DNA of 41,716 nt from a virus. Location: positions 1 to 41,716 of IMG/VR virus record IMGVR_UViG_3300023181_000016, one strand, 5' to 3'. Positions 2,998 to 12,782 of the stretch are shown here, piece after piece. Position numbers and translations under genes: made by a program. The notes under the pieces were generated by a model. It made no database searches. It saw nothing but the letters and a program-made list of their open reading frames with translations, and had not been told where the DNA came from. Within the stretch, counting starts at the first letter, position 1, and each line of letters starts with the position of its first letter.

Positions 2998-3046
2998 TTT
3001 CCTTAATTTGTAATCATTCTAAATTAGGATATATTTATTGTAAAGT

Positions 3047-3077
3047 TTGCGTAATCAAGATTAATGTTATATATTTG
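3047..3077 (+). promoter_or_regulatory. Rightward promoter
   Basis: TTG (3047-3049) and TATATTTG (3070-3077) are separated by 20 bases, a full match to the Bacteroidota consensus. It is divergent from the leftward promoter and lies 20 bases before the ATG at 3098. Confidence 0.8.
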
Positions 3078-3542: not shown

Positions 3543-3686
3543 ATGCACGGAGGAAAAAGAGTAAACGCAGGACGAAAACCTGAGTACAACGAGCCAACGG
3601 ACACGATAGCATTCCGAGTTCCCATAAGCCACAAGGAAAGCATAAAAACAATAGTTAAAGAATACTTATCAAAACTTAAAAAATAG
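3543..3686 (+). CDS. Small RHH-like or AT-hook-like DNA-binding protein (47 aa)
   Basis: The product starts MHGGKRVNAGRKPEYNEPTD. The GGKRxNAGRKP segment is the basic motif that opens many small phage and plasmid DNA-binding proteins. It is followed by TIAFRVPISHKESIKTIVKEYLSKLKK, which fits a strand plus helix of a ribbon-helix-helix fold. It is short for a full RHH but could dimerise. It overlies the start of the next promoter region, making it a good candidate local regulator. Function is inferred. Confidence 0.6.
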   Translation: MHGGKRVNAGRKPEYNEPTDTIAFRVPISHKESIKTIVKEYLSKLKK

Positions 3687-3717
3687 TTTGGTGGTGTGGA
3701 AATAATAACTATCTTTG
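3687..3717 (+). promoter_or_regulatory. Rightward promoter driving the leader RNA region
   Basis: TTTG (3687-3690), 19 bases, then TATCTTTG (3710-3717), a strong match to the Bacteroidota consensus. Transcription should start around 3722-3724, directly at the first arm of the inverted repeat at 3721. No coding gene follows for over 450 bases. Confidence 0.8.
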
Positions 3718-3718
3718 T

Positions 3719-3848
3719 ATTTGCAAACAGTGATATAAGTTATTTGACTAATCAAAATTTACCGAACATCTTTTATAATATTTTAAAAGCCATTTACTAA
3801 AGTCTCTGTTTGCAAGTCAAAGTCTTTAACATAGTAAGTGGCTTTTTT
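3719..3848 (+). ncRNA. Candidate structured small RNA or leader, pseudoknot-like
   Basis: Two long inverted repeats interlock. Arm 3721-3730 (TTGCAAACAG) is perfectly complementary to 3806-3815. Arm 3785-3799 pairs over 15 bp, with one G-U, to 3832-3846 just before a run of six T. The 3' half of the first stem lies in the loop of the second, which is H-type pseudoknot or attenuator topology. With the promoter at 3687-3717 this predicts an RNA of about 125 bases that starts at the first arm and ends at the T-run. No known RNA family is recognised. It may act alone or as an attenuator for the genes from 4175. Confidence 0.6.
3785..3848 (+). terminator. Intrinsic terminator within the leader (possible attenuator)
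   Basis: A 15-bp stem AAAAGCCATTTACTA / TAGTAAGTGGCTTTT (3785-3799 with 3832-3846) with a 32-base loop is followed by T's up to 3848. The large loop holds a sequence complementary to the predicted RNA 5' end (3721-3730), so folding could be switchable. Confidence 0.65.
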
Positions 3849-4174
3849 ATTTGTATTTAGGTGTTTCTAAACGGTATGACCTACTCAAACCAACCAACGT
3901 TTTTAATAAGAATACAAATAGGATTTCCGCAAAAGTACGAACCTCCAAATCCGAGCAATGTCCCACACTCCGACAACTCAGGGTCTCGACTTGCATATTT
4001 TTAATAGAGATAAAGGAGCAAATTAATAAAGTTAGCGAAAGGCGATATGGCTAACACCTTAAAAAAGGTCTGCAAGATTAATTTAATTAGTGCTGAGTTA
4101 GTATAAAATCTAACGTTCTTGCTTGGGTAACTTATGCAAGTATTAAGGGAGGGGTGTAACTAAAAAACAATAAC
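3849..4174 (+). other. Gene-poor structured leader region
   Basis: These 326 bases contain no convincing gene. The first half (about 3870-3995) is richer in G+C than its neighbours and includes an inverted repeat GGATTT/AAATCC (3921-3926 with 3947-3952). The second half has consecutive hairpins: GTTAGC/GCTAAC (4031-4036, 4050-4055), ACCTT/AAGGT (4056-4060, 4065-4069), GTTAG/CTAAC (4097-4101, 4110-4114) and CTTGC/GCAAG (4118-4122, 4136-4140). An alternative GCAAGA/TCTTGC pairing (4072-4077, 4117-4122) encloses the third. The repeats allow mutually exclusive folds. A 49-codon minus-strand ORF (3847-3996) exists but has unusual codons. No RNA family is recognised; a structured 5' leader or independent ncRNA is inferred. 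Confidence 0.5.
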
Positions 4175-4378
4175 ATGATGTTAATAGAAAACAAATTTGA
4201 ATTAGGTCAAACAGTATATCTTAAAACTGATAATGACCAATCAGAAAGAATGGTAATCGGAATATCGATAAGACCATCGGGTTTGCTTTATGAATTATCA
4301 TTTGGATCGGTTTGTTCATGGCATTATGAAATGGAAATATCGGAAGAAAAGAACGTATTAAAAACAACGAGTAATTAA
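4175..4378 (+). CDS. Conserved Bacteroidota phage hypothetical protein (67 aa)
   Basis: The product starts MMLIENKFELGQTVYLKTD, then QSERMVIGISIRPSGLLYELS and SWHYEMEISEEKNVL. The pattern of ELGQxVYLKTD.xQxxRxVxGIxIRP...Y.LS....HYExEIS recalls small proteins of Bacteroidota prophages with no known function. Predicted all-beta. It is the first gene after the structured leader, with an A-rich region (AAAAAACAATAAC) ahead of the ATG; the second Met is an equally possible start. Confidence 0.65.
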   Translation: MMLIENKFELGQTVYLKTDNDQSERMVIGISIRPSGLLYELSFGSVCSWHYEMEISEEKNVLKTTSN

Positions 4379-4941: not shown

Positions 4942-5505
4942 ATGCCCCGCTGCAAAAATTGTAAAGATAAATTCACCGCAAAGCACTTTAATCAAAAATT
5001 TTGTTTAGAGAAAGACGATTGTATAAAAGCCTTTACAATCTACGCAAAGGAAGTTAAAGAAAAGCAGTCTAAACAATCTTGGAATAAAGAGAAAAAAGAA
5101 AGGAAAGAAGCTAATATGACGCATTCAGAATGGTTGAAGATATTACAGGCGGTTTTTAATACTTACATTCGGGCAAGGGATAAAAACGAACCTTGTATAA
5201 GTTGCGGAACCACAAAAACAAATATAAAGTATGATGCAGGCCATTTTTTTAGTCAAGGAGGTTTCCCAAATGTAAGAACGGATGAAGATAATTGTCATAA
5301 ACAATGTTCAAACAATTGCAATGTGAGTTTATCTGGAAACATTCATAATTACAGACCTAAATTGATTGAAAAAATAGGGATTGAAAGGTTTGAAGCATTA
5401 GAATTAAGAGCGCGTACATCTACCTTAAAACTGTCAATTCCGGAAATAAAAGAAAAGATACAAGAATATAAAAACAAAATAAAAGAACTTAAAAATGGAA
5501 ACTAA
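4942..5505 (+). CDS. ninG: NinG-family recombination endonuclease (Rap-like)
   Basis: The N-terminus has a zinc-ribbon-like set of cysteines (C4, C7, C21, C27). A long basic helix follows, then CISCG (C85, C88), an AGHFFSQGG segment with H101, and a Cys/His cluster (C118, H119, C122, C126). This matches NinG/Rap proteins, which cleave branched DNA such as Holliday junctions in lambda recombination, and it has the typical size near 190 residues. With ERF, the NinB-like protein and the SSB-like protein it makes a recombination toolkit, although it is transcribed in the opposite direction to ERF. Family assignment is by motif; activity here is inferred. Confidence 0.85.
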   Translation: MPRCKNCKDKFTAKHFNQKFCLEKDDCIKAFTIYAKEVKEKQSKQSWNKEKKERKEANMTHSEWLKILQAVFNTYIRARDKNEPCISCGTTKTNIKYDAGHFFSQGGFPNVRTDEDNCHKQCSNNCNVSLSGNIHNYRPKLIEKIGIERFEALELRARTSTLKLSIPEIKEKIQEYKNKIKELKNGN

Positions 5506-6626: not shown

Positions 6627-7133
6627 ATGGGAAAGAACAAATATATTGAAACCCCTGAAAAGATGTGGGAGTTATTTTGTTCATATAGGGATGAGATAAA
6701 AGAAAACCCAATAAAAATAGTAGAGCAAAAAAGAGGTTCAGTAAATTTTAAAGTTTATGGTGAAGCCGATTTAAGTTCAATTGGTGAGGAGATAAAAGAA
6801 GCATCAAAACCTTTTGTAGAGCTTCCCGCACAAAGACCATTAACTTTTGATGGGTTTCAAAACTGGCTTGATGATAACGATATTATTTCTGATGTAACAG
6901 ATTACTTTGAAAATAAAGATGATAGATATTCAGATTATATCCGTATCTGTTCACGTGTTAAGAGAAATATTCGACAAGACCAAATAGAAGGTGGTATGGC
7001 AGGAATCTACAACCCATCAATTACACAACGATTAAATGGATTAGTTGACAAAAGCGATGTTACTTCATCTGGAGAAAAAATAACTACACCAACGGCAATT
7101 AACATCGGGATCATAGAACCTCCAAAAGAATAA
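6627..7133 (+). CDS. terS: Terminase small subunit / DNA-packaging protein (168 aa)
   Basis: The order is typical of Bacteroidota phage small terminases: an N-terminal YIETPEKMWELFCSYRDEIK segment, RPLTFDGFQNWLDDNDI (about residues 71-87) with a helix-turn-helix feel, CSRVKRNIRQDQIEGGMAGIYNPSITQRLNGL (about residues 109-140), and a C-terminal DVTSSGEKI...PTAINIGI tail. The subunit recognises phage DNA and presents it to the large terminase. It lies just before the large subunit, separated by a 250-base interval that contains a short ORF and a hairpin. Confidence 0.8.
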   Translation: MGKNKYIETPEKMWELFCSYRDEIKENPIKIVEQKRGSVNFKVYGEADLSSIGEEIKEASKPFVELPAQRPLTFDGFQNWLDDNDIISDVTDYFENKDDRYSDYIRICSRVKRNIRQDQIEGGMAGIYNPSITQRLNGLVDKSDVTSSGEKITTPTAINIGIIEPPKE

Positions 7134-10337: not shown

Positions 10338-10456
10338 AAAAACTTACAGTAAAAAAAATCGATGAACTTTTAGAAAAAGATATTGACGAGACTTTAAAGG
10401 AAAGCCTTAAAAAGAAAAAGGAAATATTATCACACGATAAACCGATTCAAAAATGA
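10334..10456 (+). CDS. Small charged protein between portal and protease (40 aa)
   Basis: Overlaps the portal stop and the protease start by ATGA on both sides, so all three are probably translationally coupled. The peptide (MKKLTVKKIDELLEKDIDET...) is one very Lys/Glu-rich helix. It may be a small scaffold-like or coupling peptide; this is inferred from position. Confidence 0.6.
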   Translation: MKKLTVKKIDELLEKDIDETLKESLKKKKEILSHDKPIQK

Positions 10457-11283
10457 TTACATTAAAAGAATTTCCGGATAAAACTTTCGATACTTCCGAT
10501 GAAGCGATGAAAGAATTGATTGATAATAAAAAACTTATTATCGCTCAAAAGAAATCAGTTGTAAAACACGCTGATTCATTGCCGTACCATAATACTATCG
10601 AAAATGAAAATAAAGAAGTCGTAAAAGCTGAAAAGATTACTAATTTAGCCGATGTAAATTCTATTAAGGTTGTAGCAGTTTCAAATGCTTGTAATTACTT
10701 TGATTCTCATGGTGATGTATCAATTAACAGTAGTTGGAATAGAACGGCAAAAAACACTAAAGACGGCTTACATTTGCAAGAGCATCAGATGAAGTATGAT
10801 AAGTTGATTTCGGATAATGTAACCTTTGCCGTTGAAACAAAAACGTGGAAAGATTTAGGATTCAATTACGAAGGATCAACCGAATGTTTAGTAATGTATT
10901 CCCAAATTGAAAAAGAAGATAATCCTTTTATGTTTGACAAATATGTAAAAGGTAAAGTTAAAAATCATTCATCTGGCTTAAGATATGTAAATATTGAAAT
11001 GGCTGTGAATAATAATGCAGATTGGGCAAAAGATGAAAAAGCAGTTTGGGATAAATATTACCAATCAATTGTAAATAAAGAAGATGTAGACCAAGTTGGA
11101 TATTTCTATGCAGTTACGGAGCAAAAGATAATTGAAAATTCAGCCGTACTGAAAGGAAGCAATCCAGCTACACCAACAATATCAGTAGAATCCGCCGACG
11201 GCACTTCTGCAAAAACCGAGAACACGGATAATTCCACTTCTCACAGTGAACAAAAAGAATTATTAAACCTAAATTTCTATTAA
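10453..11283 (+). CDS. Prohead maturation protease, HK97-like (276 aa)
   Basis: Sits between portal and major capsid, the usual place of the prohead protease. Core motifs are VVAVSNACNYFDSHGDV (about residues 73-89), HLQEH (H107 or H111 as likely catalytic His) and VKNHSSGLRYV (S173/S174 as likely catalytic Ser), followed by a variable acidic and Ser/Thr-rich tail. The pattern agrees with HK97-type serine proteases that trim the capsid protein and destroy the scaffold domain. Catalytic residue choices are inferred. Confidence 0.75.
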   Translation: MITLKEFPDKTFDTSDEAMKELIDNKKLIIAQKKSVVKHADSLPYHNTIENENKEVVKAEKITNLADVNSIKVVAVSNACNYFDSHGDVSINSSWNRTAKNTKDGLHLQEHQMKYDKLISDNVTFAVETKTWKDLGFNYEGSTECLVMYSQIEKEDNPFMFDKYVKGKVKNHSSGLRYVNIEMAVNNNADWAKDEKAVWDKYYQSIVNKEDVDQVGYFYAVTEQKIIENSAVLKGSNPATPTISVESADGTSAKTENTDNSTSHSEQKELLNLNFY

Positions 11284-12548: not shown

Positions 12549-12782
12549 ATGGCATCAAGAATTAAAGCTGATAAAACGGCTAAAAAAGAAGACGGAGTTG
12601 TTGTTACTTTTGATGAAAAGCAATATGTTGCGGTAAAGTTAAAAGCAGACGGCAAAACGTACGTGGAGCATAAAATCTTCGCTAAGAAATTAGTAGATAG
12701 AAAACTTGCTGAATATGACAAAGAAGCCAAGTTGGAAGCGCCAAAAACCAATTTTACAGTTATCGATACAGAAACTGAGTAA
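12549..12782 (+). CDS. Small hypothetical virion-region protein (77 aa)
   Basis: Located between capsid and the connector gene. Starts MASRIKADKTAKKEDGVVVT and is predicted to have beta strands in the middle (EKQYVAVKLKADGKTYVEH) and a Lys/Glu-rich helix. No family is recognised; a head decoration or head-completion role is possible from position only. Confidence 0.6.
   Translation: MASRIKADKTAKKEDGVVVTFDEKQYVAVKLKADGKTYVEHKIFAKKLVDRKLAEYDKEAKLEAPKTNFTVIDTETE

Follow-up and report, generated by a model that had tools for sequence, protein, structure and literature searches.

Phages of the Flavobacteriia type carry, at many of their operon starts, a leader RNA in which a segment close to the 5' end can base-pair with the loop of a terminator-like hairpin further along the same transcript, and the RNA architecture of this leader family is well supported. 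We define the family in the present analysis as the Flavobacteriia-phage kissing-loop terminator leader. One copy lies in the stretch of DNA analyzed here (the window: 41,716 nucleotides, or 41.7 kb, of virus record IMGVR_UViG_3300023181_000016), whose gene content is of the Bacteroidota phage type. The window copy would work in the same way as the rest of the family, but we describe it as divergent or relict and do not count it as a plain member. The reading that we favor, with somewhat more confidence than doubt, is that the leader is a cis-acting conditional terminator (an attenuator or antitermination leader) placed at the starts of operons, and its recurrence points to an undescribed way of controlling gene blocks in related viruses.

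The leader in the window

The initial annotation had placed a consensus promoter at positions 3687 to 3717 of the plus strand. The place holds; the type is that of Bacteroidota and not sigma-70, with a -33 element TTTG (3687-3690), a spacer of 19 nucleotides and the -7 box TATCTTTG (3710-3717), as in the published B. fragilis promoter consensus TTTG / TAnnTTTG (PMC7366714). The list from a sigma-70 promoter scan, which is uninformative for Bacteroidota hosts, does not contain 3687-3717. By the Bacteroidota consensus and the -7 box, the transcription start is expected at about 3720-3724 (plus strand). The next ATG open reading frame (ORF) of at least 60 amino acids begins at 4175, 458 nucleotides past the promoter, in agreement with the annotated stretch of more than 450 bases without a gene.

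At the expected 5' end sits a segment that we call E (3721-3730, TTGCAAACAG), perfectly complementary over 10 nucleotides to a segment L (3806-3815, CTGTTTGCAA) in the loop of a terminator-like hairpin whose 15-bp stem (3785-3799 with 3832-3846, plus strand) includes one G-T pair; the inverted repeat, the coincidence of one arm with the predicted RNA start and the stem itself are as first annotated. The six T said to follow the stem are present as a run (3843-3848), but the first four lie inside it, and the hairpin reads as 15 bp plus TT or as 11 bp plus TTTTTT depending on how these four are counted. The E:L duplex has a predicted energy of -12.2 kcal/mol. The proposal that the 5' end of the RNA could pair with the terminator loop is borne out by how rarely shuffled sequences match it: with the whole leader shuffled, an E:L match of at least 7 nucleotides together with a comparable stem arose in 1 of 5,000 cases, and with the 5' part shuffled and the loop fixed, a match of at least 10 nucleotides was reached in 46 of 20,000. 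Nested folding of the leader is only modestly above that of shuffles (z -1.9) because such folding cannot represent interlocked pairing. The loop lengths of 54, 6 and 16 nucleotides permit both stems together, so that an H-type pseudoknot with both formed at once is sterically possible in the window copy. As far as its letters tell, the feature is probably a promoter and, downstream of it, a structured leader RNA some 130 nucleotides long. A small, weak hairpin, TTTGA-CTAA-TCAAA, lies at 3743-3756 (plus strand). A second stretch of the 5' region, 7 nucleotides long, could also pair with the terminator loop (TTTGACT/AGTCAAA, 3743-3749 with 3815-3821); we set it aside because it is not kept in the homologue described below.

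The only other contig with the window leader in the collections searched is L020 (IMGVR_UViG_3300022930_000018), with 83% identity to the window over the RNA and 97.7% over 3840-4180. Its terminator stem is identical to that of the window, and it keeps a 7-bp E:L core (GCAAACA/TGTTTGC) although the rest of the leader has diverged; the three flanking pairs are lost without compensation. Because the stem is identical, the core invariant and the flanks uncompensated, covariation cannot be shown for the exact window copy. In related phages, the check by compensatory changes suggested in the initial annotation gives strong support to the architecture; the window copy, with its one homologue, has no such changes. 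In place of the hairpin at 3743-3756, L020 has a different 5-bp hairpin, GATTT-TT-AAATC.

In L020 the window-type promoter is also split into its -33 and -7 halves by a gene for a C5-methyltransferase, which comes with a separate pseudoknot-terminator leader (L020 3548-5215). The 22 nucleotides at window positions 3685-3706 are exactly repeated at L020 3548-3569, whereas it is the second leader that the -7 half of the window-type promoter precedes; the sequences look as if the methyltransferase leader and gene might move together as a single cassette.

Recurrence of the leader in Flavobacteriia-type phages

In a systematic scan of the leaders that follow promoters, we counted those in which a segment E near the 5' end, 7 or more nucleotides long, matches as a complement the loop L of a promoter-proximal hairpin with a U tract. 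Among the leaders of related phages that were read, this arrangement is repeated with unrelated sequences. The design is present in 53 of 676 strict-promoter leaders, against 6.4 expected, and, in Flavobacteriia-type phages, in 99 of the 3,643 leaders that follow -7 boxes, against 9 in shuffles; the T-rich end is retained in nearly all strict copies even when it was not demanded. The usual copy has a 5' hairpin with E in its loop, an A/U-rich linker and the terminator stem, and at the terminator tip of most copies a small inner stem stands beyond a purine-rich internal loop (such as tgaa/ggat or ggag/gaa), with L as the apical loop. Most copies are therefore two hairpins with kissing loops in cis, joined by a contact of 7 to 10 bp. 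Two subtypes, A and B, are mirror images of each other, and there is a further GCAG subtype. The window copy most resembles the simpler H-type forms that lack the inner stem (L014, L017, L128, L135 and L161). The GCAG subtype, found before a replication-like gene in L222, L223, L235, L236, L256, L285, L270 and L219, keeps AGTA in its hairpin, its contact is only 6 to 7 bp long, and it shares its genomic place with the other subtypes.

The position of the leader is regular. The downstream gene is co-directional in 92 of 93 copies, the upstream gene lies on the same strand in 86 of 90, and the distance from hairpin to ATG has a median of 24 nucleotides, with most copies at 17 to 50. The genes served, judged by eye from their sequences, include those for replication proteins and helicases, for methyltransferases that act on DNA, and for endonucleases of the HNH or GIY-YIG kind that stand on their own. 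Endonuclease genes of these two kinds (again by eye) have their own leader at L013 4490 and 6354, L112 5443, L123 9711, L125 7957 and L128 8627, and the sequences suggest that mobile genes may bring the promoter-leader along. Several copies occur in each of the loci L013, L118 and L125. Cultured carriers are the Flavobacterium phages tooticki6-1 (L183), mymlan6-1 (L185) and elemoA (L186) and the Cellulophaga phage phi19:1 (L184). For tooticki6-1 the leader RNA is predicted to run from near 12636 to near 12740 of NC_048844, and for phi19:1 over about 10364-10462 of NC_021799. No convincing leader copy was found in the closest terminase relatives of the window phage (L002 to L006) or in L021, and no copy was found in a small sample of three gut Bacteroidales phages or in those loci, mostly gammaproteobacterial NinG loci from a genome collection, that were scanned.

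Covariation and independent checks

Since E:L and the terminator stem are themselves the search criteria, we ran three checks that are independent of them. Two helices stand outside the criteria: the 5' hairpin pairs in 82 of 93 copies, against 33% for mismatched flanks, and the inner stem in 83 of 93, against 41%. Compensatory changes are present in every helix (0 of 500 shuffles). In alignment A3, double changes occur at 25 of 28 pairs; the double-changed cells number 158, where shuffles give 40 +- 5, and 94.9% of the cells of the whole structure are paired; in alignment A6 the corresponding figures are 20 of 28 pairs, 75 cells against 18 +- 3, and 98.4%. Structures slid along A3 and A6 as a control pair in only 33-48% of cells. 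A covariance model built without E:L (R1) retrieved 11 copies outside the selected set, one or two of them doubtful, and E:L of at least 7 nucleotides is found in 10 of the 11, against about 7% of shuffles. An ortholog set of 80 loci, fetched by one replication-associated protein alone and reduced to 56 distinct upstream regions, has a leader with E:L of at least 7 nucleotides in 43 of the 56 (0 in shuffles) and E:L of at least 6 nucleotides in 51, a few of these in poor context. Many different E:L sequences occur at this one genomic position, and such variety at orthologous sites is compensatory evolution.

Against this background, the window copy shares some features of the family and lacks others. 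It has the family -7 box TAnnTTTG together with the -33 TTTG, and the family E:L contact (at least 7 nucleotides, with the loop of a U-tract hairpin near the promoter) measures 10 nucleotides in the window and 7 in L020. A 5' hairpin of at least 4 bp around E is lacking in the window, where only TAT/ATA could pair, partly upstream of the expected start, and it is absent in L020 too. The window also shows no clear inner stem that a purine-rich internal loop would part from the terminator stem; L020 has a 5-bp stem, ACTTT/AAAGT. The window copy matches neither covariance model R1 nor R2, and it does not lie within the roughly 60 nucleotides of a co-directional ORF that are usual in the family (327 nucleotides in L020). 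With no 5' hairpin and no match to the covariance models, the window copy and L020 are divergent members by architecture only.

Proposed mechanism

In the mechanism that we propose, RNA polymerase would begin at the dedicated promoter of the leader, the 5' end of the transcript would pair with the loop of its own terminator-like hairpin to form a pseudoknot, and this E:L contact would form ahead of synthesis of the 3' arm of the terminator. Because E:L is able to form before that last arm is transcribed, it is placed to influence termination. The resulting fold would set the outcome: the polymerase would halt at the U tract or continue into the operon. In the window, the controlled unit would be the long rightward ninG-terminase-virion operon, a block of plus-strand genes from 4175 to 29598, flanked by leftward genes, with ninG at 4942 and the small and large terminase subunits at 6627 and 7386. 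We infer transcription, termination, control of read-through and the involvement of a factor or signal from the anatomy; there would be little reason to set a promoter, a structured leader and a terminator directly ahead of a gene if read-through were neither partial nor controlled. In the pseudoknot, E:L and the terminator stem need not exclude each other, so the mutual exclusion of classical attenuators is not evident. The fold would probably be read by a common factor, such as a phage antiterminator, a host Nus-type factor or the ribosome; because the fold is kept while the sequences are free, and several copies occur in some loci, a common fold-reading factor is more likely than ligand sensing. 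The attenuation or antitermination switch that was one of the two readings in the initial annotation gains support from the recurrence of the design before operons, with covarying helices, in related phages. The other, a one-off phage small RNA of about 125 nucleotides, gives way to a divergent example of a leader that recurs among these phages and as a rule lies right before operon starts.

A different role for the same fold, which we consider rather unlikely, is that of a 5'-UTR stabilizer or insulator, in which the pseudoknotted 5' end would guard the mRNA from 5'-end-dependent decay, the structure would serve as a spacer before the start codon, and the U tract would be an unstructured ribosome landing site and no terminator. 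The 5' end of the RNA is closed off by the fold, most copies lie at the short distance from the ATG given above, and initiation regions in Bacteroidota are A/U-rich, all of which would suit such a role. A G+C-rich stem that leads straight into a T run is, however, how an intrinsic terminator is built, and copies with very different sequences all keep it; T5 runs occur upstream of only 14% of ORFs as background; and the window hairpin lies about 327 nucleotides from its ORF, against about 24 in family copies. That distance, and the presence of a full promoter-to-terminator unit, would fit a stand-alone small RNA, a terminated product of about 130 nucleotides that acts in trans while other promoters serve the downstream genes. 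We regard this as unlikely: the family unit lies directly before co-directional genes with conserved spacing, as a leader would, the free variation of the E:L sequences leaves no conserved trans-acting seed, and E:L matches between copies within one genome reach at most 3 nucleotides (a weak argument, from 17 pairs).

For the window copy taken by itself, the pairing could be a fortuitous 10-nucleotide match between an ordinary promoter and an ordinary early-operon terminator, and the single homologue with its pairing down to 7 bp, the missing 5' hairpin and the lack of a covariance-model match would all be expected of it. The shuffles put the probability of such a match at about 0.0002 to 0.002, and related phages show a strong enrichment of this unusual arrangement, which makes chance a very unlikely explanation. 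Highly improbable, in our view, is a repeat that acts at the DNA level, with E and L as half-sites of a repressor operator at the start site and some 85 bp downstream: one arm does overlap the expected start site, but the repeats are unrelated among copies of one phage and lie in RNA hairpin loops with covarying stems.

Under the conditional-terminator reading, the copies may even be joined in a genome-wide antitermination regulon of Flavobacteriia phages, in which a copy of the kissing-loop leader, with its built-in terminator, would stand at the start of every middle and late operon and even of the mobile cassettes for homing endonucleases and methyltransferases, and one fold-recognizing factor of phage or host switches all of them on. 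We offer this broader proposal tentatively and with more doubt than confidence; if true, the regulon would be a strategy like that of λ N and Q built on an RNA tertiary contact.

Relation to known systems

The nearest tested precedent is the HMP-PP (thiS motif) riboswitch, a terminator-embedded aptamer in which the tip of the terminator hairpin joins a pseudoknot that favors read-through (PMC6478431). As in our proposal for the phage leader, the terminator tip loop enters a pseudoknot and the fold chooses between termination and read-through. The riboswitch has highly conserved ligand-binding nucleotides and serves thiamin genes, whereas the phage leader has free paired sequences, serves many phage genes and pairs its terminator loop either with a 5' hairpin that stands apart or directly with the RNA 5' end.

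In phage λ, the pR' promoter, the 6S RNA and the terminator tR' form a unit in which a dedicated promoter and a promoter-proximal terminator produce a short RNA ahead of an operon, with regulated read-through. By anatomy the window resembles it in having a promoter-proximal terminator ahead of a phage operon. Control in λ rests on a DNA and paused-polymerase site and on the Q protein, without the pseudoknot between 5' end and terminator loop that distinguishes the phage leader; no Q protein gene was found among the ten proteins scanned. The put RNAs of HK022 are structured phage leaders that act in cis on the polymerase at operon starts, in more than one copy per genome. They act on terminators further downstream and differ from the phage leader in not being built into a terminator themselves. 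The c4 antisense RNA (RF01695) and the P4 CI RNA likewise control leader transcripts by RNA-RNA pairing, but as separate antisense RNAs, whereas the phage leader pairs within one RNA.

Searches against Rfam release 15, run on the window and on 11 loci that hold copies of the family, gave no match at the gathering score, with weak hits at chance level only. The design is undescribed in the literature searched, which did not extend to subscription papers and preprints. Nested folding and sequence-based RNA families miss E:L because the sequences turn over while the contact between 5' end and terminator loop stays. To our knowledge, gene timing in Bacteroidota phages is largely unknown. A covariation-supported leader now marks many operon starts of these phages. 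Candidates for start sites, terminators and switch points can be read from it in many genomes of uncultured phages, and the question can be tested directly in those phages of Flavobacterium and Cellulophaga that are in culture and have the leader.

Other elements near the window leader

A DNA search of the region against named phages and plasmids gave no match, and a tRNA search of the window found none. From the hairpin to the first ORF of the rightward operon runs a non-coding leader (3849-4174, plus strand, about 325 nucleotides) with several small hairpins and about 98% identity with L020 despite different neighbor genes. Rfam gives no match for it, and its conservation would reflect either recent exchange or a second conserved RNA. 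A promoter-like TTG-N18-TACTTTTG on the minus strand (3958-3930), which L020 also has, faces left towards the window hairpin; a transcript from it would be antisense across 3785-3850, and an 11-bp inverted repeat (about 3848-3858 with 3909-3919) lies in its path. Further upstream is a divergent pair of Bacteroidota-type promoters, at 2982-2959 (minus strand) and 3046-3077 (plus strand), which from their sequence look like early leftward and rightward promoters.
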